NCBI GenBank assembly: GCA_026770025.1
Contig: JAMXDE010000037.1
Location: 372,001 to 436,000 of the forward strand
Source of the DNA: Craspedostauros australis
Taxonomy: Eukaryota; Bacillariophyta; Bacillariophyceae; Mastogloiales; Achnanthaceae
DNA length: 64,000 bases
Direction: 5' to 3'
Shown here one piece after another: positions 18,682 to 45,022 of the stretch (positions are counted from its first letter, which is position 1; each line of letters begins with the position of its first letter). The notes under the pieces were generated by a model. That model was given only the letters and a program-made list of their open reading frames with translations, was not told the DNA's origin and ran no database searches. A program made the position numbers and the translations under genes.

Positions 18682-18685
18682 CTAT
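18682..18685 (+). repeat. Target-site duplication CTAT, left copy
   Basis: CTAT immediately precedes the left terminal inverted repeat and recurs immediately after the right one at 45019-45022. Confidence 0.7.
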
Positions 18686-18817
18686 GACCCGGTTACTCTA
18701 GGAAGCGTGCATCTGAGCCGTAATGACTTTTATGACCTATCTGAAACTTTGCACACAGATAGACCTATAGGTGGAGGGCTACTGTGTGAAATATTGCCCC
18801 CCCTACGAGCATTATTA
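18686..18817 (+). repeat. Left terminal inverted repeat, 132 bp
   Basis: Matches the reverse complement of 44887-45018 over all 132 bases; similarity stops abruptly on the inner side. It contains a run of seven C near its inner end. Confidence 0.92.
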
Positions 18818-20372
18818 GAGTAGATATTTAAGTTTTTAATTTTGGACTATACCAAGACTATTGACGTACCGCATGACAGACGGCACTTTTACACCCATTT
18901 TGCTTCCCGATATGGGTCAAAATTGGGCCTGTTGTCGGATTTTTTTGAAATAGACAAGCCTGAAGCTAATAGTTGAATTGATGTCATTGGGGTGTGTTTG
19001 GGAATCTCGTCCGCACATCTACAATTGCAAAACCTGAAGCTACACTTTTGTCATTCGCCTTGCCGGCTTTCAGAACGTCCTTGGGTCATCTTTGAACTTC
19101 CAACGATTCGGTGGGATGATGCCTTCAGCTTCACTGGGCAAACTCGCGTCAGTGGCCCTGCGGCCTGTTGCAGCAGTGAAGTGGATGCAACACACCCCTT
19201 GGGATGCCATTCACCAACCTTGATCCCTGCGGTTAATCGTCCTCACTCAAACAAAGGTCCCCTGTCTCTGACCCTCACCTGCCTGTGGTCGAACCTGCAA
19301 ACCGTATCAATGCCGGACCGCGACAATTTATCCACTTTCGGCATGTTCCTGTCTTATTTGATGCCATAAATTACTTCAACCCTGAAGTTCTTTAATACTC
19401 CCTTGGTGTTGGAGTTGGAGCAGCTCATGGTATTTGGGATAACCTCTAGTATTCCATATCCAAGGTTGCCACAAGCGCGCTGTTTGTGAGGATTCGAATT
19501 TCGTTCAGTTTGAATGTTTCGCTTGGTTACGGTCTGATACCGGTTTTGACATGTCTCTGCGTCGCCGGATGTATCTATCTATTTCGAATATAACGCTTGC
19601 ATTCAATGTCTCGGTTTGAATTTGTCGAGTTCATCGCACAGTGACGTCAGCAATGTCAATCGGACAATGCTGCCAACGTGTAATAGCCAATCAAATCACT
19701 TGTTTGGATGCGGACGTCAGCCGGACATGTGGCCAGACGTTACGTCTGCAACCTAATCAATGCCAACAAAGCGCTTCGAGGCTCCGTTTCAGTGCGTCTC
19801 ACTTGCACGGACCTGAACGCAATAACGAATGGTGTGACGACAGCGCTCGAGAATGCTATCGGCGTGCCGAGTGAGCGAGGTGCAGTAGTACGTCCGTCCA
19901 ATCCATCCCCCTTGTGGGATTCTGTGCCCAGGGTCTTGCTCATACTCGTATTATACAGGTATGATGTTTCCCATCTTCGTCCTCAAAACACGAGGGAGTT
20001 GGCACGAAAAAGTGAGCGTCACATCCATCACAGGAACGGCCGGAGCATCGCTGTTGCGGAGGAGGAGCGTGATGATGAGTACGACGACGAGTACGACGAC
20101 GAGTACAACTACAAGAAACTTAGTACTTGTCCTCCTGAGTGGGAAGTATGCTATGAATCTGAGTGATTGGTATTGCAGGCACTGTGCAAGCGCGCAGAAT
20201 AGCTTGGTAATGTATTACCAGTCTCAATGATGAATCCTCTACACTGGTTTTCAAGTCGCCCATAACTGCCCCTGTAGGGCACTATCCGGATCGGTGATCC
20301 TGTCAGACCTCTGAAACAGTGCACCAGTACTTTAGATGCAGCGTACTCCGCATTGCTTGGAGTAGCTTGTGC
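18818..20372. other. Left interior of the mobile unit, no supported gene
   Basis: Several frames of 75-150 codons exist, the longest at 19708-20166 (+) with an acidic DDEYDDEY repeat near its end. None has a recognisable domain or a convincing composition. The sequence is AT-richer than the flanking genes up to about 19640. Confidence 0.4.
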
Positions 20373-23300
20373 CTATGGCCATGCCGTGTGGCGTTCCAGA
20401 AACAATCACGAGAGCTCCAGTTTGTCAGCCTCTGCTTCTGTAGCACCCGGCTTCAACGTCCAGAGTTTGAGATTGACGATTTCGAACTTGGTTCTGTTGT
20501 TGTGCATCTTCGACAGCAACGGGCTGTTGAATGTCAGACACGGACGCGTGGTTTCATGGAGCATACCATCTCCTTCGACAACTAAACCAAATCCCCAGTT
20601 CGGCTGTTGCCGTTGTTGGTGTGCGCCATCACTGTTGTTGTTGCTGGTGTTGGCATTGAGGCCGCTGCCTCATGTCGCTGGATTACCAATGGTGTCCAGG
20701 TGAATTGATGTGTAGTTGGTGGCCGTGCGTGGATATTCCTCTTTCTTTTCGCCTGCTTCTTGTCCGCCATCGTCATCGTCGTAGAAGTTGTGAGAAGAGG
20801 AGGAGGATGGAACGGTGGGAATTGGCATGGGGCCGGTGCTATCGGCAGGGGTGCCCCATCCAACCGCAAGTCAATCGTTCGTGCAGAGCTGGATGTAGTC
20901 GTTGGCACCGGCACACGGGAAGACATCGATCTTGCTTTCCAGCTGCGCCTACTCCAGAACGGATCAACTCTTCGGTGCCAAGCGGTGATTGCACATCCGC
21001 CACAGGAAGCATTCGCCCATGCCAAAGTACTTCCGTGTCTTGCGCCATGCCTGGCCGGTGAAGGCGCTGAACACTTAGCCATCCATCGTCTCCAGCGCCA
21101 GCATTGTGTACTGAGCTCTTCTTGCTTGCTGAAGGAAGGACCCAAGGGATGCACCATTGCGGACGAGGGATTACTTCAGATAGAAGTTTTCTTGTTTTGG
21201 GAAAATGGGAAGAATCCTTGAAGCGATTCCATCAACGGAGGGCTCAGGACATGAAGCGATACCGCCATATCGTCCGCCAATGTGCCAAGGATGGAAAATC
21301 CCAACATGCCACCACCTCCATAACCGTCCACATAATCGTCCTTCATGATGTTCCAGCTGTCCAACCATTCATTGTCTGGCACACATGACATATCTGAAGC
21401 GTCCTGGTAGTTGTCATCGTCGTCGTCATCAGCATCGCCGTTGTCGCGGCCGTCGTTAGCGCGCATGCGGCAGGCATGCTGCGTATTAAAGTGGCTGAGG
21501 GTTTCCTGATCACGCGGTGTGCCAACAGTGGAGGCGTCCAAGGGATCATGTGAGGAATATTCCGTCATTTCCAGATTGGGTGCAGACATTGTGGCAATGA
21601 TCCCTGGCATGAATGACTGTTCATTGTCTGCGCGACACGGCACGACGAATGCGAAAGATGTCATCATGCACATCTTGGTTGAACAAAGCGCCCTGGTTCT
21701 GGAAACCTTCCTTGCAGTGGTAGTACGACGATTCATCAAATGAGGTTGACAGGTAATGGTTGCCATGGCTCTGATCCATCGGTGTGTTTCCATGGCTCAA
21801 CAGTCGAGAGAACCAGATGATGCTCTGCGAAGGTTGTTGCTGCGCCCGTTGTTGCAGCTGTTGCTGCCAGTGATGATAGCCCCTGTCGTTTGTCCCAGCA
21901 TTCTCGACGGCGGCGCTGTGATCCACATCAGTGTAATCCAGCACTGCCGGTTCCTGCTGCTGATTTCGACCATCGGCATCGCGGCCATGTGCTGTCGCAT
22001 CTGCCATTCCCTGTAACGAACCCTGCTGTTGCTGTTGCAGCATATTCTACGGACTTTCGCTGACTTCCACACCCTCACCGTCGTAATTGTTTCTTGATGC
22101 CAGGCGCAACAGGACAGGTTTTGGTGGGCTCTTCTTGGCTGTGGGCGTCTTGGATGCCCCGTTGGCGCATCATGTTCTTCCATGGTGAGGGAAGACATCT
22201 TGGCGTCTGATGGTGTTGACGAAGGCAAAGCTTGACTCATGGTCTCCAGGTCCATTGAAGAATCTGCCGTTGCAGCAGACTCGATGGTTTTGACAGTCGA
22301 TACGATGCTCGGCATTGTGGCCGCAGTTGGCACAGTCAAGATGGTAGCAGGAACATGATCAAGACGGAGATTTTGTTGCTGTTGTCCTTGCTCGTGTGCA
22401 CTGCTGGTTTGTGACGACTACTATGTGCTTGTTGCAAATGACGACATGTTGCTGGCCGTCGCCCATGCCATAGCCACCTGATCCGATGCCTCATACTGCG
22501 CGCGCAAGATCTCTGCCGCGTTGACAGATGGTGGTGGTGGGATGGTGACGACAGCATCGCGGAAGCACAGCTGCGTAGTTGTGGTGGGAGCTGTGATCGG
22601 GATGTCGTCTTGGATGACAACTCTAGATGATTGCTGTGCTGCTGCATCGTGAAAAGTGGCGGTGGACGATTCGGACCGCATGGTGGTTGCGGGTTGGATG
22701 GGAGGGAATGTCTCAGTGGTCGCGGTTGATTGAACATGCGACGATGTTGCCAGTGCCGAATTCTGAAGCAAGGCAAGTCGCTGTCCGTCGAGATGGTGGA
22801 TTGGGAACGCAACGCTGTCGTGTGGCGAATGGATGGAATGGTCGCATTCGTCGCGTCGGTGGTAACTGACTCGCCTCGCATCACAACGCCTGGTGGGAGC
22901 GGCGGGAACGTGTTGTTGGTGGCAGTTGATTCGGACTGGATGGCCGTCGCGAGTTGGATGGGTGGGATGCTGGCCTCGGTTGCGACGGATTGCCGCGCAT
23001 CGCCTTGCCTGGAGGGATTGGGGGGAAACTATCGACCGTGGCTGTCGATTGCGATCGCAGCGCTGTTGCCGGTTAGATCGGTGGGATGCTCGTATTGCCA
23101 ATGCTCGCCACCGTCGTGGATGAGTCGCTTCGAATGGCGGCGGCGGGGCGGATGCTGGCAAAGGATGCGATGGATCCTGCGTCAGATGCGATCCTTGCAA
23201 GACGAGCTGTGCTTGGTCGCGACGTTGGCACAGGAGCATCGTCGATTGGCAATGACGACGACGAGGCGTAGACCAATGTGTCCGACTGTCTGCGAGTCAG

Positions 23301-24840
23301 AAGCTTCGGCCTGCGAAAGGTTGAAGTTGGTGTTGGAGTGGTACCATCGTTTGTTCACTCCAAAAAAGGTGACAGATTGTATCCTGTCACGTGCGGCCAG
23401 CGGCATTGGCGGAGATGCGAGGGCACCAAACTGTGATTTTGACATCGACGATCTCTTGGGCATTGGTGATAGCCGCAATGCTGCCATTGGCTTGTTTGCA
23501 AAGGATACTGCAGCGACGGTCAGCGACTGGGAACGCTGATATTTGCGTGTGAGTTTTGCAGTTGGGATGTCGCGTTGTTGTTGTTGTTGCTGTTGCTTTT
23601 GCTGCTGCATTTGCGACCTCTGCTGCAGAGTGGTGGAGGCAGGGAGTCTGATCGATCTGCGTTGCAGCTTGCTGCGGAGGATCATGCGCGCCTTAGCATG
23701 CAAGCGATGCATGTCATCAGGGCCAACGATGATGCGGATGAGGTGGCGCTATGGACACTGCTGCTGAATGAAAGCCTCTTGTTGGTATTGGCGCGGCGGC
23801 AGAATTGTAATAACTGCTCCAGATGTTGCTGTTGCTGCTACTGTGGCTGGTGTTTCGTTGTTATTGCGGAATCCGGAGCATGGATGGGAGTGGCTGGATG
23901 ATGGTCGGAGGCGTAGCTCTGGTTGACACTGATTGGTTGGTAGATTCCAAGCTGTCCCTTTGGTTGGCTTGTGCCTGTGACTGCAGCCAGAGATGTGGTG
24001 GCGTGTCAGCTGGAACGAACAGCGTCCCCGCACCCGTCGCATTCGATGTCGTGACCAAAGTCCCCAGCCCTTGCTCATGCACCTTCCACAGAAGCATGTG
24101 CGGCGAGTCCTTGCCATCCAGTTGCTGCTGATGTCGTTGCTGCAGCACCGGGTTGCGACAGGCGGATCCCACTGACGTGGACCTGCCCATCTTCTTGTGG
24201 ACGGAACCTTTTGAATTCATGCCACTCACATCACCGTTTTGAAGACCATCTGCATTGGACGCGAATGATATGGGCTTCGGGAGTCTTGGCAGCGGTGGCC
24301 TTGTGTTTGCCTTCAACTCCGCGTCAGCCAAAGTCGCAGTTGCAAAGTAGCAGCAGTTGTAGTAGTAGCAGCGGTGGAGTCAGCATCATGATTGATGCCA
24401 TTGGCTGCCTTTGTGGAATCTGCGCCAATTGGTTGATCATCTGCTGACTTGGCGGTGGCAACGTGAGAAATGGATGACATGGACATGAGCTCCCCCTGCT
24501 GCAGTCGCTCCCATACCAGTTCGATCTCGCTGTCCGTGCCACGCATCGAAAGTTCCCGCAAGAAGGTATGCTCCTTGGACGTCAGGTACACGAAGGAGGA
24601 GGCGCGTCTGCGAGATGATCCCAGCACCCCTCGTTGTTCCTTGTTGCAAATGCTGCCGTTTGCAGTGTTTCCCTCCGTGTTGTCCATGGCGTTATCCATG
24701 TCACTATCCATGTTAGCATTCGTGCCATTCGTGCCTTTGCTGGTGTTGCCGTTGTCTTGCGCAGCAGCTGGGCCTCCGGTGGCACCATCTACAATCTTCG
24801 CTGCGGCTGATGTCGCCTCTATGTTCACTTCTGCTGTCAT
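20373..24840 (-). pseudogene. Decayed TLDc-domain gene
   Basis: Read on the minus strand from the ATG at 24838-24840. The N-terminal part is A-, T- and N-rich low complexity with TSKEHTFLRELSMRGTDSEIELVWERLQQ. The frame shifts near 24320 and again further on. A TLDc domain occupies about 21180-20370: GASLGSFLQQARAQYTMLALETMDG, VFSAFTGQAWRKTRKYFGMGECFLW, IDVFPCAGANDYIQLC, LAVG, then WGFGLVVEGDGML and FEIVNLKLWTL. TLDc proteins act in oxidative-stress protection and V-ATPase regulation in other eukaryotes. This copy carries at least eight in-frame stops in the domain (near 21171, 21075, 20964, 20949, 20871, 20670, 20406 and 20373) and cannot be functional. Several stops look like CGA to TGA changes. 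It lies wholly within the 26-kb mobile unit, so it is captured cargo or was present before assembly of the unit. Confidence 0.75.
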
Positions 24841-25477
24841 GGCGCAGCTTGGACTGTCGACTCGTATCGTACTATCCGAGAGAGAAGGGTCCCATCTACC
24901 AAGTCAACGCGAGAACGGTTGGCCGTGTCAATGATGATGTTGTTGTTGTTGGTGGCAGCGGCGGTGCTGTTGTTGTCGTGTTTTCGCTTGACGAATGGAT
25001 TGATTGTGGAGAAAGGGAGTGAATGTGATGCGTTGCGTTGTGATGTGCGGAGTGCCAGGCGCCGCGCAACGGCGATGAGCGCTGTGTTGTCCTTGTGTCG
25101 TCTGTGCTGCCACTAAAACATCCATGACATTTTCGTTTCTGGGTTCATGGCAGTGCCGTTTTCTCTGTTTGGATCCGCGGTCGCTCCACACGATTCCATT
25201 TGTTCCTCCCCCTCCATGTCCGAGTTTGTGGGTCACGCTGTGTGTCGGTCGTGGACTTCGATAGGAAAATCCGCTCTTGGCCGAAGTTGTACAAACCAGC
25301 GTGTCGTTCTGCCGTCCTCATCCCTCTCCGGTGACTTGTGCGCTCTTCATTGTGTTCTTCTTGCATGTTGTTTGCACCTTTGCTCCAGCATCTTGAAAGT
25401 ATTCATGCTTCGTGCACCTTTGTCGACTTGCACATAATTCCACCCAATCTCAAGCCCAACATCCTTCACTGTGCAAC
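24841..25477. other. Gap between TLDc pseudogene and left transposase
   Basis: GTT- and TGT-rich sequence with no supported gene. It should include the promoters of the two divergent neighbours, if they are still active. Confidence 0.4.
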
Positions 25478-27997
25478 ATGTATCATCCACGCGATTCCGG
25501 GTTCGGCCACACCCAGCCACCACCACCAAAGTCTCCAAGGTACGAGTATGCAAACAGTGGCCACATCAACCATCACAACCAACCACCAAGCCCAGGCCTC
25601 GTCCATCCCAACTCGCCTGCAATGTACTCTGGCCCACCTATTGTGGCTCGCCCTGTTCCATACCCATACTCGTACCCCTACCAGAACATGATGAACCCTG
25701 TGATGCACCCATCCTATGCATCGCCTCCACCACAGCATGGACAGCCAACATTCCATCGACCAAGTCCTGCCTGGTACCCACCACCTGCTGCGCACATCCA
25801 CCACAACATGAGCTTGCCAAATGGCGGAGCGACGACGGACGATTTCAACATGCTGAGACTCCCAACTGAAGTCGCCAAGCGCAGCCTTTCTGAAAACGTC
25901 GGATCCGCCATGCACGAAAGCCGTGAATTCGCCCAAACTGCAAAGGAGGAGGGGAAGAACCGTTTCGGCATCATGCTATGTCGTGCATGTGGTGTGCACT
26001 TCTGTTCCTGTTGTTTCCAGCAACGCGCGAAGTTGGCCGTGTGCCCAGATTGCGCGGGAAACAGAGCAATTGGAAGTGACAGCCAAGCCACTCTTGGAAC
26101 CGACAGCCAAATCGAAAAACAAACTGACATCGCTCACAACAACGTGGAAAATAACACGCAACCCAAGTTGGCAGTTGGACTTGACAGCAAACAGACAGAC
26201 GCCGTTTCCAGCAAACAGACAGTCAACGATACTAACACCACTAAAATCCACAACAACGATGACTACGAAAATCACACTGCCATCAACAGTAGACCTACCG
26301 ATACCATCATTGAGGAGGCTGCTGCAATGTATGACTATGATGATGATAGTGATGATGAGCTCCTCAGCAACATGATGGCAAGCGATGACAGCCAGGAGGA
26401 TGGCAGAGATGTTGACTATGATGAAATGGAAGATATGTGGCCAACATGGGATGGCAATACAAAGTCTTGGGAGAAACTGTCCTCCATCATCAGCATGGCC
26501 CGCCACAACATGCATGGTTTGAGAGACTTTTGCAAACAAGGCTACCACACAATTCCTGGTAAACATGAGACACAGAAGTGGGCAATGATCAACAGAGCAT
26601 GGGATCGGTTGTCCACGATCTCATCACAGATCATCTTTCCCAACAGACCATGTCTGCGCCAACTTGCCAATGTGATGAGATTTGTCAGAGATGACAAACG
26701 CCTGCCTTCACTCACCTTGGAGGAAACTGTCTGCCTGATGCTCTTCTTTGGGAACAGAGATGTGTCAAAAATGGCAGGCGCAATCCTCGCATCAACTTCA
26801 ACCTGCAAAGACTGTGCTGCCATCCTCACGCACCACTACAAGCGCCTCTCCCCAGAAGATCAGGTGAAGGTCATCTCCATGCGGACTAAAATGCACAGCT
26901 CCAAGCACAAGCAACTGATTGGTGCTGCCAGGAAAATTATCAGCGGTGGGCCAATTCCTGTTGGGGAGTCGAGAAGTCGCCTTGGTCGTGAAAAACTTCA
27001 GGAGGTAACTTCCTTCCTCGCCTCTGTCACGAATTTCAAGCCAGGCAGATCGCGCAAGGTGAAGCTCCATGGCGTGGTGTACAATGGTTTGCCTATCTTC
27101 CTACGCGGCAAACAGACTGTCAGACAGCTATTTCGCCAATACAAGCAGACAGCGACAAAACCAGTGGGCTTCAATACTTTCCGCGAGATTTTTGCCCTCC
27201 TCACCAAACGTGGCAAGTGCGAAACAGGTCTTTCCTCCTACTATGTGGACACTTTGGAAATGTCAATCAAGTTCACTGATATGCTCACGCGAATCATCGA
27301 AATGCTGGGCACAGATGATGCCACGAACGATCTACGCAAAGAGGCACTCGAAATTGGCGAAGAGTGGAACGAAGTTTTCACCTTTGTCAAATGGGAGTAC
27401 ACGCATTCACATGTGCGCGTCCAATGTGAGGATGACCACCTTCACTCAGCGCAATTCGCACTCACCACCGGCGAATGTGAGGCCCAACAAGAAGTCTGTG
27501 CACGTTGTGCACATGCAATGACATTCTTCTCCTTCCGTGTCACAGACTACCTTGAACGCACCAAGGGTCACATCCGCAACCAACAGGACCAAGCAGAGTT
27601 CAACACTATGTTTGGGGCTGTGTCTCTGTGTGACAAGCAGCTTGGTGTGTACATGTCACACAAGGTGAGGGCAATGGTGCAATTTGAGCAAATCCGAAAG
27701 GAGAAGGAATCACTTATCAACGAACAAGACAAAATGATTGTTGTGCTTGATCACAAGCAGAAGATATTGCCCATCTGCAGCAAAGAATGTCAATCGGCAT
27801 ATTTTGCCAAAAAGGGAATGTCACTTCTGGGTGTGATGACCATTACTTATGAAGGAGGTGAGTATCACTATCGCTTTGTGGACATGCTGATAAAAAACTA
27901 TCATGCACAAGATCAAGTGCAGGTTGCAGGGCTTCTCAAGATACTTATGGCGGACATCTTTCCCGTCATGCATCCGGACAAGAAAAGAATTGTCATC

Positions 27998-28000
27998 CAG
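27998..28000 (+). repeat. Target-site duplication CAG, left copy
   Basis: CAG precedes the insertion at 28001 and is repeated at 31564-31566. Removing the insertion and one CAG restores the reading frame of the host gene. Confidence 0.75.
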
Positions 28001-28190
28001 GAACACCCAACATTTTGTCCGATTTTCACTTTTCTAGATCGTGACCTAATTTAACGGGACTTAATACACTGCGTTGAGACAGAAAAGTGAATCGTCTGAA
28101 ATCCTGAAAATCGTAGATAGGGTTACGCTATTGCTCTTCAATTGTCGTTGGTCCAGGCACGACAGAGACCGGACAAAACCGGAGAAACTA
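28001..28190 (+). repeat. Left terminal inverted repeat of the Harbinger-like element
   Basis: Nearly identical to the reverse complement of the right end for the first 48 and several later blocks (for example the stretch around the word TTAATACACTGCGTTGAGAC), with scattered mismatches near 28095-28160. Confidence 0.85.
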
Positions 28191-28332
28191 GGTCAGACCG
28201 GACAGACCGGACAAAATGACCGGACAAACCGGACAGACCGGACAAAACGACCGGACAGACCGGACAAACCGGACAAAATGACCGGACAGACCGGACAAAA
28301 CAAACGAATCAACCGGACAGACCGGACAAAAC
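28155..28332 (+). repeat. 10-bp minisatellite, CCGGACAGAC/CCGGACAAAA type
   Basis: Units of about 10 bp repeat the core CCGGACARA. An inverted array of the same unit lies at about 31185-31400, so both belong to the terminal repeats of the nested element. Confidence 0.9.
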
Positions 28333-28781
28333 TCAAGAATTTATCGAACTATTTAACGGACGTTTGGTCGAATATAACGGACATTTGGATCGTGAAGAAA
28401 CAGACAAAACTACTTCGCACGGAGTGACGCAAGCCAACCCAAACCACAAGAACAGATCAGCGAAACAAGACAACAAGCCAGCTTCGCACTGAAGTATGGC
28501 ATCATGCCAATGCAAATGTCCGGCTCTATTGCATTATGTGTGTTGTTCTTATTAATGTTTTGTGGTATGACATCAAATCTTGAAGAGTTCTGCTCCATCA
28601 TCCTGATGGTATTGCACAATGGCACAACTGGCTTCAAACACATGCTTCTGCTTTTCTGTGCCATGCAAAAAGTGATCTCCAGCACGCTGAAGAACTCCAG
28701 TCTCTCATTGAAAGTCTCATGATGCAACCGTGCTCTGCTCTTGAAGTTTTCAAGTTCTGGCCCATCGATCTCATTTGGTGT

Positions 28782-29368
28782 TCACATCATATTCTTTTTC
28801 ATACAACTCGTCCTGTGCCCACGATCAGCAATGATGACTTTTCCGCCTGCGATCTGATGCAACAATCCTTCACAAAAAATAGTCAAGTCATGTTTACCTC
28901 CTTGATGGAGCCCGTGGATCCAAACACACTTTAAGTGGTACACAGTGATTGCGATCTTGTATTTGAGAGCACAGTGGTTGAACTTCTTCGAGCCCCATGC
29001 CAGATCTGTGTTGAGTGTTGAGTGTTTCTGCTCCCATGCATGAAAATCTGTGCTGTCAACTGTGGCAATAAAAGCTGGTCCCTCTGGATCATTCAATGAG
29101 CTTGGCCAAACAATCATGTCAGCTTTCATTGCTGCAATCATTTTGATCCAGCACCATAGATGATTCCATGTTGCATACTATCAACATATCCCATATGCTG
29201 CAGCAAGGATGTTGGCATTCTTTGGATAGGTCCATAGAAAGCATAGAACTGCAAGGAACATTCAGAAGCCTCTTCCACTGTGGTCATATTGTGATATTTT
29301 TGCTGCGGAAGTAGTGGTTGTGTGCACGTCATCCCAAATACCTGAAATAGTTTCCGGCCAAGATGCAT
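28782..29368 (-). pseudogene. Harbinger-type DDE transposase fragment
   Basis: Two adjoining minus-strand frames (29368-29138 and 29141-28782) cover part of a DDE transposase. The first has FYAFYGPIQRMPTSLLQHMGYVDS; the second has the VDSTDFHAWEQK block with the first Asp, the HQGGKHD block (second Asp) and the ADRGH block. Compared with typical 350-400-residue Harbinger transposases, the N-terminal part and the rest of the catalytic region are missing or frameshifted. The protein would have acted on the terminal inverted repeats of its own element. Confidence 0.6.
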
Positions 29369-31180
29369 AGTGAGATCGGAACATGGTATTTCTTTGATCC
29401 ATTGTCATGTCAAGAAACAAAGGGCAAAGACCAGTTCAGCCATAAAGCCTTGTTCCAGGACACCCAATGGTTAAACAACAAGCATTTGTACAGAGGGTAT
29501 GTGTGGCTTCTGTTGATGTGATGCGGTGGCAATGCTGCTGGCTTTGGTGTCATTGGTATTCTCTCCATTAGGTGTGAAATTGCCAATATGTTTGGTGCAT
29601 TATGGTTGATCTTCCCTCCTTGAGGATTTGTCAACATCATCGCTGTGTTCTTGGTTGTGAGATTGATGCTGTTGCAATGTGCAAGCATTGAGTCAAGAGA
29701 AAAGAAGTTTCAACATAGAAAGTCTGTGTCAGAAATATTCATTCTTGAGGGCATTTTCCACGGGACTCCAATCATTGTCATCCAATGCAAGGAAGACATC
29801 AGAGTATGTGGAGTGCAAGTCCTGTCATAGCCAAAGTGCTGTGGAATTTTGCAGCACGAGTGGGATAGATGGATCATGGTTGTGGATCACCATAGTGAGA
29901 GAAGTCCAAGACATTGATGATGCTGTTCCTGTGGCTGCTTACCTTGAGGCAGGCACTGTCATCATGACAAGAAAGGGCAAGAACAAATGAAGTTTGATTT
30001 GTGAGCTTTCTCTCTCTGCATTCTGTTGTCCTCACTTTGGTTGTATCACTGTCTTGTCATTGTGTTCTATGTTTGCTGCAGGTACTTGGCAACTTGGTCT
30101 GTTCTTTGTCTATTCTTGGCACAACACATCAAGCAGTCCAATCAGAGAATGCTTCTTGCTGCTCCTGCATCTGTGGATGGACAAGCTTGCATTTTTGCAA
30201 CAGTTCGTTCTTCTCGAATGTTTGGGGCAAGCTCTCTCATTTTATCTCTCAGGAACTCAGACAGCCAGGCATCATGCCAAGCTCAAAGAATTGCACAGAA
30301 GCCAAATCCTGAGTGAAATCATCATTGTTCCACAGAATCAACAAGAAAGGAGTGGTCAAGACATAGCACAAACACCACAGAATACTCCAAACATCCCCAC
30401 AATGTCAAGAAGAGAGGGTTGTATCAAGTGAAAGGCTAGCAAAGCAAAATTCATCATTCTACAGGACTTGCTAGATGGTGTTGTGCCAATGACTGAAGAA
30501 GAGTTATCTGCTGCAGAAGTGTGGGACACATGCTGCTTCCACATGGCTGAATTTGTTGATGTTGTGCTCAGCCAGTTTGAAGCTCACCTTCGCGATCATT
30601 GGAAACAGTTGGGCAAGAAAGAGTTGCATCCCATGGTGGAATTGGCCTCATTGGAACATGATAGATGCATACACCCAAGAGAAGCAATGAATTCTTGTGG
30701 AGGCTTGGTGCTCAACATGTCCACTGCAAGTATGCTCCTCCAACAAGACATCCTAGAAGTTGAACAAATGGAGGCGACACCATCAGAGTTGCAGCAAACC
30801 TGACCAGTATATATGTGCAATTTGGAAAACGCAAATTCAAAGAACACATCTACCAGGAAGTGCGACAAATCAAGCTTATTTTCTATCTTGAAACCAAGCA
30901 CAGCAACCCTTAATTGAGCAGAGCGTATTGAACTCGAGCAGAGTGTCTCAGAATGGAGTATGAAACAGTAAGAACCAGCATCACTCTTCACAGCTTTTGC
31001 TGTCTACTTTCCACATACTAATCGCATCAACCAAAAATACTTGCCGGAGGTAGTCCTCCACACTCAACCCAGACACTCGCAATGTTTCTCCCATTTGATC
31101 CATCGCACGTCGCCGCGCCGGCCTTCAGTGCTGGTTTGGGTCACTGTCCGTTAGCAGTGTCCGTTAAGTTCGTTAATTTT
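29369..31180. other. Interior of the Harbinger-like element, unassigned frames
   Basis: Several plus-strand frames of 85-145 codons occur, for example 30468-30803 with TEEELSAAEVWDTCCFHMAEFVDVVLSQFEAHL. One could be a remnant of the second (Myb-like) Harbinger protein, but no diagnostic motif is visible. Confidence 0.35.
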
Positions 31181-31184
31181 GTCC

Positions 31185-31400
31185 GGTCTATCCATTCTGT
31201 CCGGCCGTTTTGTCCGGTCTGTCCGGTCATTTTGTCCGGTTTGTCCGGTCGTTTTGTCCGGTCTGTCCGGTTTGTCCGGTCGTTTTGTCCGGCCTGTCCG
31301 GTCTGTCCGGTCGTTTTGTCCGGTCTGTCCGTTTTGTCCGGTCATTTTGTCCGGTCTGTCCGGTCTGACCTAGTTTCTCCGGTTTTGTCCGGTCTCTCTT
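31185..31400 (-). repeat. 10-bp minisatellite, right (inverted) array
   Basis: About twenty units of TTTTGTCCGG/TCTGTCCGGT, the reverse complement of the array at 28155-28332. The open frames here are artefacts of the repeat. Confidence 0.9.
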
Positions 31401-31563
31401 GATGGGCGTGAACGAACCACAATCGAAGTAAAATAGCGTAACCCTAAGTATGCTTTTTGGGATTTCGGCTGATTCACTTTTCTGTCTCAACGCAGTGTAT
31501 TAAGTCCCGTTAAAGTAAGTCACGAGCTAGAAAAGTGAAAATCGGACAAAATGTTGGGTGTTC
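31375..31563 (-). repeat. Right terminal inverted repeat of the Harbinger-like element
   Basis: Reverse complement of the left end at 28001, ending GGGTGTTC directly before the CAG duplication at 31564-31566. Confidence 0.85.
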
Positions 31564-32940: not shown

Positions 32941-34160
32941 TGAGTCTACTTGCACATCAATTCACATGATCTAAAGTATAGTAGCCATTGGATGACTGTG
33001 CCAACAGTTGCAAGAGCATGCACAATGTGTGTTGTGTTGTGCTGTGTCGTGTCGTGTTTTTTTGTGTTGTGTTGTGTCGTGTTGTACTGTGTCATGTTGT
33101 GTCGTGTTGTGTCATGTTGTGTCATGTTGTGTCGTGCTGTGTGCACGCGTTCGCACTCAGCACGGAAAACTGCACGATCACACCGGTCGCGATCGGCTTC
33201 GCCAGAAACCAAAAAGTGTAGGACAACAGTTTTGGGGATGGGAGAGCACCCATCAGCAGCTTTGATGGTCGAAGATGCCATGCAAGCATCTTCCAAATCG
33301 CCAAGCCACCCATAGAAGATATGTTCATCATTAACACAGGAAAAAAATGTTGTGAGAGTTTTAAGTAATATTGTCTGCAAGAGGCGTTATCCTAAAATAA
33401 CCGCCAAGGGGCCTTTTTCGGCACCGACAAAACGGCATGATGGGCTCATCATACGGGTGCGTACCTTCGAGAGCATGCACACCCAACCCATTCTGGATGC
33501 ATCAGGATGTCTTCAGGGAACGTGGTCACGCGCGGGGCGCACGACGAGGGGCTGCGAAGGTCGTAGGAATGAGATACGGATGCAAACAGTAGCAGCATCA
33601 CGATCGGCGGTAGTTTTTCGAAATCGTTGGGCTTCAGGACGGGGACCATTTGGGGCATGGGATGCTGATATCAGTGGCGAAGCTTCATTGAAAGTCGATA
33701 GATACAGGATATACGGAGACAGTGTGGTGCGTAGCTTGCAGCAATACGACGGTCACGGGTGCTGAGGGGAGGTCAGGCTGGCACCATCCACGATTTGGGG
33801 ACTCACGAAAAAGCCGAATACATGCCGAAACGACGTTAAAAATAAAGTTGTGATAATTTTAACTTCGATGGTCACCACCGCTGATAGGAAGCTGTATACA
33901 TGTACTATTTGGTTTCAACTGGAAACGATGTGTTGTTGTGATATGGCATCATATCCAGTTGTTGGCATTGATTTTGGGCGTGTTCTGTGTGGGCGTGATT
34001 GGCACACCTCGTGGCACGAAACTCCACGGGTAGTGCTATCACGGAGGCATTCCATGGCACGTCGCGCGCAACATGAAAGAGTTGCATCATCGTTGTTGTT
34101 GCGATTTCGTATGGTGCTCTATTTGTCTTAGCTTCGGTACCATGCGATGCTCACATGAGT
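32941..34160. other. Non-coding interval after the left transposase
   Basis: Contains a TGTTG/TGTCG-rich low-complexity tract at about 33020-33145. The rest has short frames without recognisable motifs. No inverted repeat that would close off the left transposase as a separate element was found here. Confidence 0.4.
33020..33145 (+). repeat. TGTTG/TGTCG low-complexity tract
   Basis: A long stretch built from GTGTTGT and GTGTCGT words with slight variation; likely expanded by slippage. Confidence 0.85.
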
Positions 34161-37100: not shown

Positions 37101-37530
37101 GCGCCCACCCATCTCTGGCCTTGTTGTGGTGTGTGATGTTCTGTGTTGGAGATGGCATTGCACACACCTTGCCTCCCTCTCTGAAAATGTGCTTGCATGT
37201 GCTGTGCCATGCTGAGGATCGTCGTGATGTTGGGTAACAGATCCACTTCGCGATGGGGGTTACATCGAACAGCCCCTCTGCGTCTCTCACAGCATGCTTC
37301 ATGTGCTGAGCTCTGTTGATGTTGTGTTGAGTGCTCGAACGCCAGTGGACTCATTCGGTGACGAGGACAACATTCACCATCATCCCTTCATCTCTCACCC
37401 TGTGTGCTCAAGTGTGTTGTGCGATCGCGTGCTGGGTTCAGATTGGGCAGGGCGATCTGACTGCATGTCAAGTGACTGAACAGCGAGGACTGTATCCCAC
37501 AATGTCTGTCAATCATCCAACAGAAGAGAG
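34160..37530 (+). repeat. Degenerate tandem-repeat field, unit about 110-130 bp
   Basis: The same set of words recurs in order along about 3.3 kb: GTGATCCAACCGCAG, then GATTCACTTTGCAGTGAGGATCAC, then ATCCGACAGCGTCTCTCCATCTCTGACCATGTGCTCG, then TGTGATGTGCTGTGTTGG. Units are strongly diverged and vary in length. A local 16-bp four-fold repeat (GATCCAACCGCGGAGT) lies at 34771-34834. The many small open frames are not genes. The array lies inside the 26-kb mobile unit. Confidence 0.75.
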
Positions 37531-37534
37531 CTGT

Positions 37535-37890
37535 GGTGATATGCTGCGATGTCATGCTGTGATGCCATGCCGTGGTGCCATGTCGTGACGCCATGCTATG
37601 GTGTGATGCTGTGCCGTGATGCCATGCCGTGATGACATGTTGTGATGCTGTGCTGCGATGGCATTCTGCGATGCCATGCTGTGATGCCATGCCGTGATGC
37701 CATGCCGTGACGCTGTGCCGCGACGCCATGCCGTTGCGCCATTTTGTGATGCCATGTTGTGATGCCATCTTGTGGTGCGATACCGTGCCGTGATGATCTG
37801 CCATTCTGTGATGCCATGCTGTGATGTCATGCGTCGATGCCATTCTGCGATGCCATGCCATGATGTCATGTTAGGGTGTCATGCTCGGAT
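37535..37890 (+). repeat. 13-bp minisatellite (GTGATGCCATGCC type)
   Basis: Consecutive 13-bp units with the consensus GTGATGCCATGCC, best preserved at about 37670-37790. It abuts the larger tandem-repeat field. Long frames on the minus strand rich in WHH and AS come only from this repeat. Confidence 0.85.
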
Positions 37891-38867
37891 GTCACTTTCG
37901 GATGTTCCGTTGATGCTGTGCTTCGATGGTAGTCGTATTGCGGCGTTGGATGCCTCTCCTTTGTTGTGAATACAGCCCACCAGGGCGCTCGTCCTCAATG
38001 AACGTTGCAGTGCGTTGGACATCGTGCTTGCGTGTGGAATAGCAAAAGATCGACGAGACCAAATGACTGCGAAAACGCATTTGCTTCCACCCCAGCAAGA
38101 ACGACGGCGAACAAGTCTGCTTTCTCTGTGTGAACATCTGTCATCAGCCAGTGGGCGGGCTCTTCCAAACTTCACGACCCGGTGATTTCGGCGTTTCAAG
38201 ACGTGTTGTGTGTTGCCTGCGAACCCAAGAGACCACCTCCAGAGACACAAGAAGACCCTCTCAAAATCCAATTCGACACTTGATCGATCTGGTCGAGAGC
38301 CATCAATTCGACACACAGTTCGTTTGATCGGGCACCCGTCCTCTCTGGCAACAAAGTCAACGACGTATGCATTTGTCACATCGGGACATTTCTTCATTTA
38401 AGGAAGCATGAAACGAAAGTTGTGGACAGATGGGACATTGACATGTGTTAACGTCCGTCCAACCGAATAAGGAGCATGCCAACCCGCAAGCCGAAACGGA
38501 AATGGAGAATCCTGTTCTCCCCAGAAGCTAATCGAACATCGACGACTTCGATCGAAGCGAAATCGAGAAGCCCAGGAAATTGAAGAAGGCAATTCCACGT
38601 CTATCCGCGGTACGAGAATCTGGAAAGATGTGTGTGGACAACGTCTGGAGAACGTCGACTGAGACTGTCTTCCAACCATGTGTACGACGTCCAAAAGCCA
38701 AGCCATCCAGGTTTGGACACATGTTGTCTTCTAAACCCACAACATCCTTGGCTTGACGGGCGATATCGGAGTCGACTCTAAAATAATTTAAGACGGGCCA
38801 CTGCGAGGGTATCTTGTGGCCCGGCCGGCGTGTAGAGGTTAGCCTAGATGCTTATAACTTTTATAAG
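37891..38867. other. Interval before the right transposase element, decayed sequence
   Basis: A minus-strand frame at 38397-37879 (172 codons) and smaller frames exist, but none shows a known domain. From about 38790 the sequence GGCCACTGCGAGGG...GTGGCCCGG may be a decayed outer end of the inner element. Confidence 0.35.
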
Positions 38868-38953
38868 AGCCCGATCAGTGAGTCGACCAATCGTTTGAAA
38901 TGAAGAGTCTAATCGGATTTCTGGGATTTTTAAAATAAGCACATATTCGCAAT
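38868..38953 (+). repeat. Inner inverted repeat, left copy
   Basis: About 90% identical over 86 bp to the reverse complement of 44799-44884, starting AGCCCGATCAGTGAGTCGAC. In the right copy this segment sits directly inside the outer 132-bp repeat. Confidence 0.85.
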
Positions 38954-39360
38954 CCTTGTAGTCTCTTTATGTACATGTCACCTTTTCAGTGCTTAGTAAA
39001 GCTTATTTTACGTTTTATGCACCGATCAATGTGTTCATTCTAGTCATGTGGATCCAACCACACAAAAATCGTTGGTAGTTGTCGAAGGTTCTATGATGTT
39101 CTGAGATATTTATCGTCAGGTGATCAGTCACGCACTTGCTTCCGAAGGTGTCAGTCGTTTGGTACGCGTTAATTACACGTTAGCATGTGCCACAGGATTC
39201 CACATTCTGCTCGTCACAAAACAGATGACACAAAACACATCACACAAAACACATCATCTCCATCATTTCGCAAATTCGCGCCACACGTTCGCTCCATTTC
39301 ACAACTTGGCTCGCCAATGCCATGCACACTCGCCCTTTCGCTCAATGCACGTTCTCGTCA

Positions 39361-39393
39361 GAGTAGTAGTAGTAGTAGTAGTAGTAGCAGTTG
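39361..39393 (+). repeat. AGT trinucleotide microsatellite
   Basis: About nine AGT units upstream of the right transposase start. They add a polyvaline run to the upstream extension of that frame, which speaks against the extension being translated. Confidence 0.85.
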
Positions 39394-39515
39394 TTGTTGT
39401 TGTCAACGAATGGTCGACCATTCATCGTTTTCTCTCCTTCCTCACTTCATCTCAACCAGTGCACACCATCACATCCAACCGGCAAACCACACTACTCTCC
39501 ACCAACAACTCCACC

Positions 39516-42500
39516 ATGTTTCTCTCTGCTGCTGACAAGGCCCATCCCAAGGATGCCAACCCCTCCCCCAGTAAGAAGCCACGTTCTGCTCGCCCTGCAT
39601 CTGCTCACCCTGTGCCTGCTCCTCCTGCCGACTCCAAGGGAAACTTGCTCCCTACCACGGAGCAACTGTTGCCTGACAAGCCATCCGCTACGTTGAGGAA
39701 GCCAAGCACCATCACACGAGTGATTGATGTGAAGCCGATGTCTGCAGCGGATGGCGGCCTCGTCCCGAACGGTACGCATGCGCACGCTCGTGAGCTGCAT
39801 GTGTTCGTCCACATCCTAGACAGCAACGGAGGCGTCTTTGACGACTCCCATGTCGAGGTGCGTTCGGAGGGACGAGGTGTTGGCGATGGAACAGTGGTGA
39901 GCGTTTTCGTGAACGCGCCACCCCCGCCTGCTGCGCCTGACGTTGCACCACCTGTCGAGCCTACCCCGCCAGCTAGGCTTCCCCGCCAATGCAATACGAT
40001 TGTTGCTGGCCGCTACGCAGACACCTCCAATGATAGCGACAGCACGTACGTTGACGAGGAGGAAAAACAGACGCGCGCCGGCTGGGGCAGGAGGGGCGGC
40101 AAGTTTGAGTGTGACCCGACAGAGGAGGGCAGCTGGAGGCGCGATGCCATCGTTCGTGCGATGGCGGCTCTTGGATCTAACCTAGATTCAAAACTGTTGC
40201 AGCTGATGCCGAAAAAAGGGTTTGTTCTCACAGGCAGACACGATCGGACCATCTGGAGCTACATCAAACAGGTGTGGAGTGTCGCATCGTGTGCACTTTG
40301 GACTGTCCTGCTTCCAGAAGAGGGCGTGCCAACTTGTCAGATGGAACAGGTGGTTGCATACGTACGCGGCAATGTGGAACTTCCTCCAACGATGTTGGCA
40401 TCTAACCTCTACACTGTGGGCTTGCTCGGAGAAACTACATCATCCCGCACAGTTAGAGCTGCTCTGGCCATGTCTGCACCACATGCACAATGCACTGCTA
40501 TCCTGGGTAGGCATGCACAAGGATTGTCGGAGGAACAGAACGCCCGCATGCTTCCCAAACGCGACATCATCACGCAAAGCCAGGCAAGCACCTTGCGTCG
40601 CTACTTCGACAAGTTGAGTCACGGCGAAATCGTACCTGCGCGAGTTCTTCAGTACCGTGTGGGTGCCTGCAATCTCTCTGGTGTGGTGTCCTTCCTCATG
40701 AACACGACTACGTACAAGGCAGGGTTGAGTCACACGGTAAAGTATGGTGGTGTCCAATTTGACAATGTCCCGGTGTTCGATCGTGGAAGCACCACCATCC
40801 GAGACTTATTCGGCATGTACTCGTCAACGACTAACAACCCAGTGGGAAGGCCCGCCTTCACCACCATTACTAACCTACTCACACGCAAAAGCAAAATCAA
40901 GACAGGCCTCTCTTCCTTTGAGAGTTACTTCTGGATGGCGACGGAGAAACTGAAACAGGCAATTTCGCGCCTAGTAGAGCTACTCAAGGCTAAGTATGAA
41001 GCAGACGGGGAGGAGGAAAACGATGATGCTGTGGATGCCAATGACGAAAGCTACCACGACAATGATGATCCCAGTGACGTCATCGCACAGCATGAACGCA
41101 CAGCCGATTCCCTGTTGCATGCGCTTGGACTGATTGTTGTGTTCCTCAAATGGGAATTCACCGCCTCCCACATGCAGCTTCAGTGTGACGATCCAATGCA
41201 CTCGGCCGCGTTCGCTCTCACTGCCAACAAGGAGAAGAAGAAGGGAACAACCACATCAACCAATCAACGCAAACCACGCACCAACAAGCACAAGCGCAAG
41301 AAGAACACTCTCACAAATGACATTCCTGTGGTCATGACAAACGAACAACCACGTAAAGTATGCAACCGTTGTGGCGCAGCAATGCGATTTGTGAATGATC
41401 GTTTTGTCCCTTTTGTCAAAATGCTTAAGGACAACGAACTCGCAGAACACAAAGACGAATTGCAATCAATGCTTGTGGCGGCGCCAGGATTCGCCAATGA
41501 AATCGTTAAATACATGGCTCACAAAGTGCGTGCGAAAGTTCAATTCCAACAAATCGAATTTTATCAATCCCAACTCAACGAAAAGCCTGAAAGAGCCTAT
41601 GTGGTACTCGACCATAAGCAAAAAATTCTACCGACAGGCCAAGGCGAAGCCCAACAAGAATATTGGGGGAAGAAGGGGATGTCACTGCTTGGGGCAATGG
41701 TCATCACGTGTCGCAACGACATTTTTACTTATCGGTTCATCGACATTGTGGTCGAGGGAAGACCGACGCAAGACACACTTCAAGTTGGTGGACTGCTGGA
41801 GATTGTGCAACAAAAGGTCAAAGACATTTACCCATCCGTGACTGAAATCATCCTACAGAGCGATAATGCATGTTGTTTCGCCAGTCACGAGCACATCGCG
41901 CTCATCACGTCCAAACTGAACAAGAAACTTGCGACACGAAAAGCAGCTAAAATCATCGCGTGGATCTACACAGAGGCCCAAACCGGTAAGAGCATGCTGG
42001 ACACCCACTTCGCGTACATCACACGTGTACTGCGAAAATACGTGCAAAGTGGCAAGGACATCAAGACCCCTTTCCAAGTCTTCCTCGCGCTCCAAGCCGG
42101 TAACATCGCAGGTACGACAACAGTACTTGTCAACGCGTCGTCCCTTGAAGGCAACATCACGTCGTTTCCAGGCGCACCAAAACGACGATTCCGTGCAAGT
42201 GGACAACAGGTACGTCAAACTCACGAGGTGAAGTATGACGATGACCAGGCGCGGTTGGTGGCTGCATCTGGCATCACCGAAGACGTCGTGGTGAAGAGCA
42301 CCGAATGGGAGGGCTGGAGTATCAACGAGTTGGGTGTCATCGCGGACAAAACATTCACGTCCGACAAGCCGGCAATTACGTCCGAATCATTCAGGAAGAC
42401 GGACAAGACGCGCAAAATGGGGCGTACAGCAACAGAGAGCAAGGCGTTCGCGATCGGCAAAGCCCTCCAAGACGGACAACGGCACCTACCGTCCGATCAC

Positions 42501-43034
42501 ACCACAGCGTTCAAAGACCAGACAGCAGGAACAGAACACCCACCACTCGCGGTGCAAGGCTGGGCAAGCAAAACAACACGGACCAACGCCAAACTACCAG
42601 ACTACATCGCGGCGAAATTGAAGGACATCTGCAAAGCGTCCGCGAAGGATCCGAAAAACAGACCATCCGAACACGAAGCACACGAGCAATTGATGGGCGA
42701 CGAAAGAACCAAAACTGACTGGTACGTGCAACTGCACGCAAATCCCATGCGCGTGAAAGCGTCGCTGTTTGCAGCGTACAGTGCCAAGCAACGCAAACAA
42801 AACCAGGAGGCTGTGCTCACCAAGACAGAAACCAACACAACAAACAAAGCAACAGCAGCATCCGCAATTGTGGCAATCCACAATGCACCAGCGAAAACAG
42901 AGGAAGAGCAGAGAGAAGAGGAGTTGCAGAGAGAAGAAGAGCAATTGGAGAATCAGAGGTGGTGTGATGCTCACACAATGAAGGCCAACACAGAAAGTGA
43001 GGCTGTGTTGGATGATGAGACGGACATTTTGTGA
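39516..43034 (+). CDS. Intact transposase-like protein of an unassigned family
   Basis: 1172 residues from an ATG with a favourable CCACC context. The frame is open upstream to a GTG at 39120, but that part includes a microsatellite and is not used. The N-terminus is proline-rich, then comes a helical middle region (GGKFECDPTEEGSWRRDAIVRAM, IWSYIKQVWSVASC). A zinc-type cluster LQCDDPMHSAAFAL...CNRCGAAM (about 549-625) precedes the core: LDHKQKILPTG (Asp about 699), KKGMSLLGAM, IILQSDNACCFAS (Asp about 783), and WIYTEAQTGKSMLDTHFAYI (Glu about 820, Asp about 829). This order suggests an RNase-H-like DDE/DDD enzyme that would cut and join the element ends, but superfamily and third acidic residue are uncertain. 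The C-terminus is charged. It has no stop or frameshift and may still be active. Confidence 0.68.
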   Translation: MFLSAADKAHPKDANPSPSKKPRSARPASAHPVPAPPADSKGNLLPTTEQLLPDKPSATLRKPSTITRVIDVKPMSAADGGLVPNGTHAHARELHVFVHILDSNGGVFDDSHVEVRSEGRGVGDGTVVSVFVNAPPPPAAPDVAPPVEPTPPARLPRQCNTIVAGRYADTSNDSDSTYVDEEEKQTRAGWGRRGGKFECDPTEEGSWRRDAIVRAMAALGSNLDSKLLQLMPKKGFVLTGRHDRTIWSYIKQVWSVASCALWTVLLPEEGVPTCQMEQVVAYVRGNVELPPTMLASNLYTVGLLGETTSSRTVRAALAMSAPHAQCTAILGRHAQGLSEEQNARMLPKRDIITQSQASTLRRYFDKLSHGEIVPARVLQYRVGACNLSGVVSFLMNTTTYKAGLSHTVKYGGVQFDNVPVFDRGSTTIRDLFGMYSSTTNNPVGRPAFTTITNLLTRKSKIKTGLSSFESYFWMATEKLKQAISRLVELLKAKYEADGEEENDDAVDANDESYHDNDDPSDVIAQHERTADSLLHALGLIVVFLKWEFTASHMQLQCDDPMHSAAFALTANKEKKKGTTTSTNQRKPRTNKHKRKKNTLTNDIPVVMTNEQPRKVCNRCGAAMRFVNDRFVPFVKMLKDNELAEHKDELQSMLVAAPGFANEIVKYMAHKVRAKVQFQQIEFYQSQLNEKPERAYVVLDHKQKILPTGQGEAQQEYWGKKGMSLLGAMVITCRNDIFTYRFIDIVVEGRPTQDTLQVGGLLEIVQQKVKDIYPSVTEIILQSDNACCFASHEHIALITSKLNKKLATRKAAKIIAWIYTEAQTGKSMLDTHFAYITRVLRKYVQSGKDIKTPFQVFLALQAGNIAGTTTVLVNASSLEGNITSFPGAPKRRFRASGQQVRQTHEVKYDDDQARLVAASGITEDVVVKSTEWEGWSINELGVIADKTFTSDKPAITSESFRKTDKTRKMGRTATESKAFAIGKALQDGQRHLPSDHTTAFKDQTAGTEHPPLAVQGWASKTTRTNAKLPDYIAAKLKDICKASAKDPKNRPSEHEAHEQLMGDERTKTDWYVQLHANPMRVKASLFAAYSAKQRKQNQEAVLTKTETNTTNKATAASAIVAIHNAPAKTEEEQREEELQREEEQLENQRWCDAHTMKANTESEAVLDDETDIL

Positions 43035-44798
43035 TGGCTGTGCGTCACCGCAATAACACTAGTTGTGGAGTTTTGTGGGGGATGAGTCGTGATACGTAGA
43101 CTACTCTAGAGAGCATCCAAAATCCATCCAAACATCTGCTTATCATGCTATATCTCAATAATACATGGTTTACAATTAAATCTATACATTGCATACGTAC
43201 ACATGACTATCAATGCATCAGAATATCGAAGGTAGATTGAAATAGAAGTTATTTTTATTGTCATGTTGGTCCACCACACTGTTGTGTGGTGGATTCACAA
43301 AATTCTCGATCAAGCAATGTTGCCCTCCCCTCAGCACCCATGATCATCATCATCATTCTGGTATTTCTGCAAACTGCGCACCACAATGGCTCTGTATGCT
43401 CCTCATCTATCCACTCCATGAAGGACAGAACATTTCTGCCACATTGCATGCCCCAAAGTGTCGATACACTGAAAAAAAGCGATTTCAAAAAACGATTTGC
43501 AAGCCGGACGCGGTATGGATACGGATCCATACCTCATCCACATGACCCTTTCAGCTCCTCCACATGACCCTCGTGCATTCCCACACTCCCTGGCGACACG
43601 CTGACGCATCCAGAGGGGGCTGGACATGAATGGTACGGGTGGTACACCTCCATATGATGATGCCGTTGCTTTTTTGGGCGCCCCACCAAAAAATGACCTG
43701 TCTGTACTCATTCGAGGCCGCAGCCTCTTCCAGACAATATCGAAGGCGCAAACTTCGTCAGGACCATCTTCCGTTGGTGGCGCACGCATCTTGTATGGGT
43801 TAGTTGGCGATTGGGTGGCTTGATGATGCCTCCCCCTCACTGCCAAAGCCATGTGATGGGTACGCCGCGACCCGCCCAACAAAGCTCTTGCCCTCCACCT
43901 TTCCCTCCGCGCGGACACCTTCCCGATCCTCCCCGACCCTCAAACTTCGTGGGCGCGTTGGTGATGGCCTCTTGGATGTGCCTTGACCCTCCAAAGGTGT
44001 TGGTGTGGGCTGTGTATGGAGCACACAGGCCACATCCAACGAGCCAATTTGCCGCATTTTGGAGACGTTTGCGCGGAGGCCTGCGGCGGCCCCAAATCAA
44101 CCGCTCTCGCAGCCTCCGCTCGTCCACCCACCAAGGGTTGCATGGCGGTGACGGCGATGTGCTTGGATTTGTCGTTGGACCGCTGGTTGGTGCGGCGCCG
44201 AGGATGCCGTTGGACGGCCATTGTGGGATTTTTTTTGGGTTTCCGCCATCGTCATGTTGTTGTTTCGAGTTTGGCGCTCTCAACCAGTCGCACATATTGG
44301 GGTCTGAGGCAATTATCAACTATTGTACCAAAATGAACGAAGGCAGCATGACACAAAACACTTCGGGAGTACCAACCACACTCAACCCTTCCGTCACAAC
44401 GAAACACACAAGACGATGTTTCATGTCGTCCTGTGATTGGTGGTTCATGACGCAGCAACCAGTTTGGTGACGTAGACGACGGATCAGACAAACGGAGGGT
44501 AAATTGAACTTAAACGCACGCTCACCGCTTCTCCCACAACTCTACAACTAGTGCTATCGTGGACGGGTGTTGGATGGTCTGATCGGAACGCCTCAGGAAG
44601 AGACTAAACAATTCAAAATGGGAACAAACTTGCTCAACAGAAGAACAGCAAAGGGTTAACTTGGATCGATGTAGTCGTAGCCAAAAGGCTGAAACCCGAA
44701 GGAGATGGACGAATGTGCAAATCCATCGGTCCATAAAACATAAAATAGGGCCAACCTCGGAACTGGAATGGATTGGTATAAGTTTTAGATCTATGAAG
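43035..44798. other. Right interior of the mobile unit, no supported gene
   Basis: Overlapping frames on both strands (for example 43811-44470 plus and 44319-43837 minus) are proline-, glycine- and arginine-rich without domains. Likely 3' sequence of the transposase gene and filler. Confidence 0.4.
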
Positions 44799-44884
44799 AT
44801 TGCGAATATGTGCTTAGTTTGAAAATCCCAGAAATTCGACTACACTCTTCATTTCAAACGATTGGTCGACTCACTGATCGGGCT
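44799..44884 (-). repeat. Inner inverted repeat, right copy
   Basis: Reverse-complement partner of 38868-38953. It is contiguous with the right outer terminal repeat, separated by only two bases. Confidence 0.85.
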
Positions 44885-44886
44885 CA

Positions 44887-45018
44887 TAATAATGCTCGTA
44901 GGGGGGGCAATATTTCACACAGTAGCCCTCCACCTATAGGTCTATCTGTGTGCAAAGTTTCAGATAGGTCATAAAAGTCATTACGGCTCAGATGCACGCT
45001 TCCTAGAGTAACCGGGTC
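44887..45018 (-). repeat. Right terminal inverted repeat, 132 bp
   Basis: Perfect reverse complement of 18686-18817, ending CCTAGAGTAACCGGGTC and followed by the CTAT duplication. Confidence 0.92.
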
Positions 45019-45022
45019 CTAT
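45019..45022 (+). repeat. Target-site duplication CTAT, right copy
   Basis: Immediately follows the right terminal repeat and matches 18682-18685. Confidence 0.7.

Follow-up and report, generated by a model that had tools for sequence, protein, structure and literature searches.

A 26.3-kb block between perfect inverted repeats in Craspedostauros australis is very probably a 16.75-kb transposon with a captured host gene, stretched by two nested elements

The 64,000-nucleotide stretch of Craspedostauros australis DNA analysed here (the window) contains two 132-bp sequences lying in inverted orientation about 26 kb apart, which raises the question of what moved to this site: the whole block as one unit, as a first-pass annotation of the window had suggested, or a smaller element that was enlarged afterwards. 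The dimensions given in that annotation proved exact, the two terminal inverted repeats (TIRs) matching without a mismatch, the outer length being 26,333 bp (18686 to 45018), and the same four bases, CTAT, flanking the block on both sides. A perfect inverted match of 132 bp is far out of reach of chance; the repeat search lists the pair as 135 nt, 99% alike, because its listing extends a few bases into the flanks. The boundaries are:

18682..18685, no strand: left target-site duplication CTAT, the same four bases being present at 45019-45022
18686..18817, plus strand: left 132-bp TIR, starting GACCCGG
44887..45018, minus strand: right 132-bp TIR
45019..45022, no strand: right target-site duplication CTAT, matching the left CTAT

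With the left 132-bp end as query, a search of the window's own assembly (74.8 Mb in 90 contigs) gave 14 matches, 12 of which form six inverted pairs, the other two being degenerate singles. The pairs range in span from 9.3 to 31.7 kb (C35, the window copy, 26.3 kb; C43, 22.6 kb; C28, 31.7 kb; C14, 16.75 kb; C3, 9.3 kb; C27, 11.3 kb), and the end is by no means confined to short elements with different partners, the pattern that the annotation had said would speak against a large transposon. Matching 4-bp duplications flank four of the five testable pairs: CTAT around C35, CTAA around C28, ATAA around C14 and TTAA around C3. The flanks of C43 differ (CTAA on the left, TTAT on the right), and in C27 one tip is short of its outer 12 bases. 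Both marks of a class II TIR element are present, inverted ends in all six pairs and a duplication of fixed length in every testable pair except C43.

The extent of the mobile unit was defined by comparing the six copies in all 15 pairings. C14 consists of the common core free of any large insertion and measures 16,753 bp, and the window copy, once its two insertions are subtracted, leaves a core of 16,744 bp; the mobile unit is about 16.75 kb long, in the form seen in C14. C43 carries one insertion of 5.9 kb bounded by 665-bp direct repeats that are 100% alike, and C28 carries a 14.9-kb insertion containing a 5.9-kb piece with identical repeats of 663 bp. C3 and C27 are devoid of the transposase region and have the same deletion junction at different genomic sites, C3 missing one further piece as well. 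Since a single junction occurs at two sites, this deletion form has probably been mobilised in trans; it is not young, given that the left sides of C3 and C27 diverge from C14 by 8.2% (514/6,280) and 8.7% (549/6,283), respectively. Together with the six pairs and their 4-bp duplications, the deletion derivative bears out the annotation's idea of a large TIR transposon moving as a unit, at a smaller size than it had supposed.

What separates the window copy from this unit is a pair of nested elements, both of them multicopy:

28001..31563, no strand: nested element 1, 3,563 bp, with inverted ends of about 345 bp (88%)
38867..44885, no strand: nested element 2, 6,019 bp, with inverted ends of about 91 bp (92-93%) that start GAGCCCG
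39225..43034, plus strand: open reading frame (ORF) carried by nested element 2, with 1,269 codons when counted from its first ATG; a relative of the outer transposase

Nested element 1 lies inside the transposase gene, which it splits in two, and is flanked by a 3-bp duplication, CAG, at 27998-28000 and 31564-31566; the site is uninterrupted in C14, C28 and C43, and is missing altogether from C3 and C27. Full-length matches to it were found at no fewer than 18 genomic places, the window included, when the best 40 of 55 candidates were scored. Its inverted ends hold tandem arrays of 9/13-bp units (TGTCCGGTC), and the two ORFs scanned against Pfam gave no match above the cut-off. Nested element 2 adjoins the right 132-bp end on its inner side and is flanked by the 4-bp duplication ATAA at 38863-38866 and 44886-44889, and its site is uninterrupted in all five other copies; at least 13 places, again including the window, match 6,015 or more of the 6,025 queried bases (best 23 of 558 candidates scored).

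The two insertions therefore account for the 26.3-kb spacing; both are bounded by separate duplications and are missing from the other copies, and movement of the 26.3-kb form is not supported. A composite transposon, in which the whole block including the nested elements travels as one unit, would fit the perfect outer ends and the matching CTAT, but nested element 1 is lacking from the three copies that keep its site and nested element 2 from the other five, and both have duplications of their own and are multicopy elsewhere in the genome, making this reading very improbable. Where the annotation had envisaged a mobile unit of 26.3 kb, 9.6 kb of that length is thus insertion. We conclude that the window very probably holds one copy of a class II transposon of about 16.75 kb that carries a captured host segment and was stretched by two nested elements: the 3.6-kb element would have split the transposase gene, and the 6.0-kb element, a relative, would have inserted just inside the right end.

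Misjoining or collapse of a repeat during assembly could in principle create such a block. An indication of a problem of this kind comes from C43 and C28, which are 99.8% identical over 14.4 kb, a stretch that takes in 1 kb of fully identical left flank, and have different right flanks, so that C43 is either a recombinant or a misjoin. At the window copy, in contrast, the duplication matches and neither the flanks nor the nested insertions are shared with another copy, and we regard an artefact at this locus as highly unlikely.

The left part of the element is occupied by host-derived DNA, and the transposase gene follows it:

19890..25047, minus strand: captured host segment of about 5.1 kb, containing a decayed 1,489-codon TLDc-domain gene (86% identity over 5.2 kb)
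20847..21200 (C35:392847-393200), minus strand: TLDc domain remnant (PF07534), E 1.4e-11, with 5 stops
25478..28000, plus strand: transposase gene, 5' part, 99% identical to the open frame of C14
31564..32940, plus strand: transposase gene, 3' part, 98% identical to C14

The probable source of the captured segment is a host locus, C28:462957-468043, which has a single open frame of 1,489 codons from stop to stop that encodes a TLDc domain (PF07534, E 6e-26). All six copies hold 5.1-5.2 kb similar to this locus, with 86% identity in C14, C35, C28 and C43 and 89% in C3 and C27. The matched stretch extends 165 bp beyond the open frame on its upstream side and 455 bp on the downstream side, as would be expected had genomic DNA been captured, and the transfer would have run from host to element, because the donor frame is open and the element copies are broken. 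Five copies (C3, C27, C14, C35 and C28) were scored for lesions and carry in-frame stops (4 to 14 per copy) together with frame-shifting indels (4 to 9 per copy), the window copy having 13 and 9; C3 retains a 977-codon open stretch that includes the TLDc domain. The decay of the gene is evident from these stops and frameshifts and not from its ratio of replacement to silent substitution rates (dN/dS), which at 0.43 to 0.69 is not 1. On this evidence an ancestor of the element probably took up 5.1 kb of host DNA that included the complete TLDc gene, and the gene subsequently decayed as a passenger.

Elements of the Pack-TIR kind likewise hold host DNA between their TIRs, and such carriers are typically non-autonomous. 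Here host DNA at 86-89% identity to its source lies between the TIRs in 6/6 copies, yet three of these carriers (C14, C28 and C43) have an open transposase frame of 1,298 codons, and the cargo, at about 5.1 kb, comprises a whole 1,489-codon gene. Pack-TIRs have been described in animals (PMC8277862), and a fungal hAT TIR element captured a histone H3 gene that was then inactivated (PMC6710886); these cases resemble ours in that a copy of a host gene lies between inverted ends and has decayed, the original remaining open (PMC6710886, PMC8277862). In one survey of Pack-MULEs, as reported in a review, none exceeded 7 kb (PMC6431247).

The transposase gene is split in the window copy, and its region is absent from C3 and C27. 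A structural model of the product, with a mean predicted local distance difference test score (pLDDT) of 78.6, has a predicted DDE/RNase H-like core, and an integrase and Mos1 were among its best structural matches; Foldseek against PDB and viral models gave no match at E <= 0.001. Pfam searches with single transposase proteins returned no significant match, and neither the nested element 2 frame nor the A3 profile found a significant sequence match in PDB. The Pfam family rve was weakly touched in one of six members (E 0.14), as one of eight weak families of which the best reached E 0.088, and was not used. Protein searches yielded sets of 4, 13 and 17 relatives (for the last, scoring covered the 7,993 candidates with most words in common), none of which has a precomputed Pfam domain or is named a transposase; two are labelled 'hypothetical protein'. 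The product of 1,298 residues is a putative DDE/D transposase, as predicted from its modelled fold, and would be catalytically active as such. It has invariant acidic residues, with two candidates for the third. A separate fragment at C28:145815-147125 is 93%/89% identical to the outer transposase, and none of the 132-bp end matches listed lies near it.

The 132-bp ends would then most likely be the substrate of the transposase encoded by the intact copies. The element would be excised and joined to a new site, mostly NTAA, where a 4-bp stagger would give rise to the 4-bp duplication, and any remaining movement of the window copy would have to occur in trans.

A Polinton-like or other endogenous viral element would also agree with the size and the long inverted ends. 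Polintons/Mavericks carry polymerase, packaging and capsid genes, and their duplication is 6 bp, as against 4 bp here; no viral gene appeared among the ORFs scanned against Pfam (many short ORFs being left out), and none of 127 pattern matches to the A3 profile in viral contigs was confirmed. We consider this explanation very improbable.

What, then, does the identity of the ends say about recent movement? The twelve 132-bp ends differ solely at bases 57, 74, 79 and 94, the lost tip of C27 aside, and the annotation had taken such ends around decayed contents as a sign of recent movement or of ongoing end conversion. Six end comparisons among C14, C3 and C27 gave 1 or 2 differences per end, where the adjacent 500 bp predict 4.8, 6.9, 8.7, 12.7, 8.3 and 8.7 (Poisson P 0.05 to 4e-5), so that the ends of these copies are more alike than the neighbouring DNA, which bears the annotation out in part. 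Measured against the whole side, the left ends remain low (P 0.004 or less) and the right ends stand out less (P 0.01 to 0.07). The young copies C14, C28 and C35 gave six comparisons, of which three fall low against the adjacent 500 bp (P about 0.01 or less); with the whole side as reference, none is clearly low. All these P values presume independent differences and are made too small by patchy divergence: the variance-to-mean ratio of difference counts per 250 bp lies between 3.9 and 8.1 outside the transposase gene, compared with 0.7 and 1.7 inside it.

These patterns bear on whether gene conversion or ectopic recombination has homogenised the ends, in which case their identity would be uninformative about recent movement. 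Consistent with this, both C3 ends, along with one C27 end, share the same variant at base 79, C43 and C28 have the left flank in common and not the right, and silent-site divergence (dS) between C14 and C28 is 0.0136 in the captured gene as against 0.0024 in the transposase gene. Recombination among copies would explain both the patchiness and the lower dS of the transposase gene, as could uneven mutation or constraint. Against homogenisation, young pairs such as C14-C28 show no excess, base 133 separates left from right in every pair (G at the left end of the core and T at the right, 6/6), and recombination by itself gives no 4-bp duplications; moreover, binding constraint from the transposase explains equally well why ends are more alike than adjoining DNA. 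Conversion of the ends is accordingly a possibility that we hold at somewhat short of an even chance, and one that is compatible with a stretched 16.75-kb transposon.

Related elements occur in the same genome, one query recovering at least 35 loci, with elements of about 6.0, 12.0, 13.5 and 16.7 kb. The frame of nested element 2 is identical to the outer transposase in 179 of 596 aligned columns (30%). A 12.0-kb relative (C37:526831-538807) has 135-bp ends that are 97% alike, with one clear tip (GACCCGGG); its left tip is inside a palindrome, which may mark a rearranged end and which obscures any duplication. A further family, more numerous than the window element, is represented by a 13,493-bp copy (C17:352749-366241) with perfect 38-bp ends starting GACCCG and ATAA on both sides. 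A search with the left part of this copy gave 65 other matches, 24 of them at least 290 bp long and starting at query bases 5141-5147, just outside the end; three short ones among the remainder start at the same point and the others further in. The end motif and the 4-bp duplication are common to the members in which both ends can be read.

Two other repeats were seen within the giant element of the window, an array of 13-bp units (TGCCATGCCGTGA-like) at 37498-37910 and a segment at 33198-33987, perhaps an old repeat, of which 0.6-0.8 kb resembles at least 32 further genomic places at 65-68% identity. An Rfam scan of the window at gathering cut-offs gave no match.

The window element is very probably a giant class II TIR transposon with gene capture, a kind already described in outline, for which excision and re-insertion would be the expected route. 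Ectocarpus has giant KDZ, EnSpm and Sola-1 transposons, mostly above 10 kb and up to 30 kb, which likewise show extra genes, nested transposon insertions and copies with a broken transposase; there, nested insertions are mostly common to several copies, while here none is among those compared (PMC12477816). Enlarged EnSpm elements of 16-20 kb in a red alga are similar in size but contain 4-5 ORFs, as opposed to one long frame of recognised kind, GACCCGG ends and a 4-bp duplication here (PMC6431247). EnSpm/CACTA elements have CAC...GTG ends and 3-bp duplications, and Zisupton (KDZ) duplicates 8 bp (PMC12730594), neither of which agrees with the window element. Kolobok and piggyBac duplicate TTAA specifically (PMC9587614), and only one of our four duplications (C3) is TTAA. 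Sola2 elements of social amoebae are described with AT-rich 4-bp duplications, inverted ends and variable large cargo; those ends, however, are 12 to 21 bp and the duplications AWWT, against 132 bp and CTAT, CTAA, ATAA or TTAA here (PMC3627910).

Taken together, GACCCG-type ends that are kept alike, NTAA-like 4-bp duplications, a roughly 1,300-residue DDD/E transposase with no significant Pfam or PDB match, and uptake of a whole host gene alongside autonomous copies would suit an undescribed superfamily, a proposal that we make only tentatively and regard as rather doubtful, Sola having been compared by description only. In this one genome the full series can be seen, from an insertion-free 16.75-kb copy through stretched copies to a deletion derivative at two sites, with the open donor of the cargo still in place. 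Such a series allows size limits, gene capture and end likeness to be measured in giant DNA transposons, and the transposase represents an additional lineage without a name in the sequence libraries compared.
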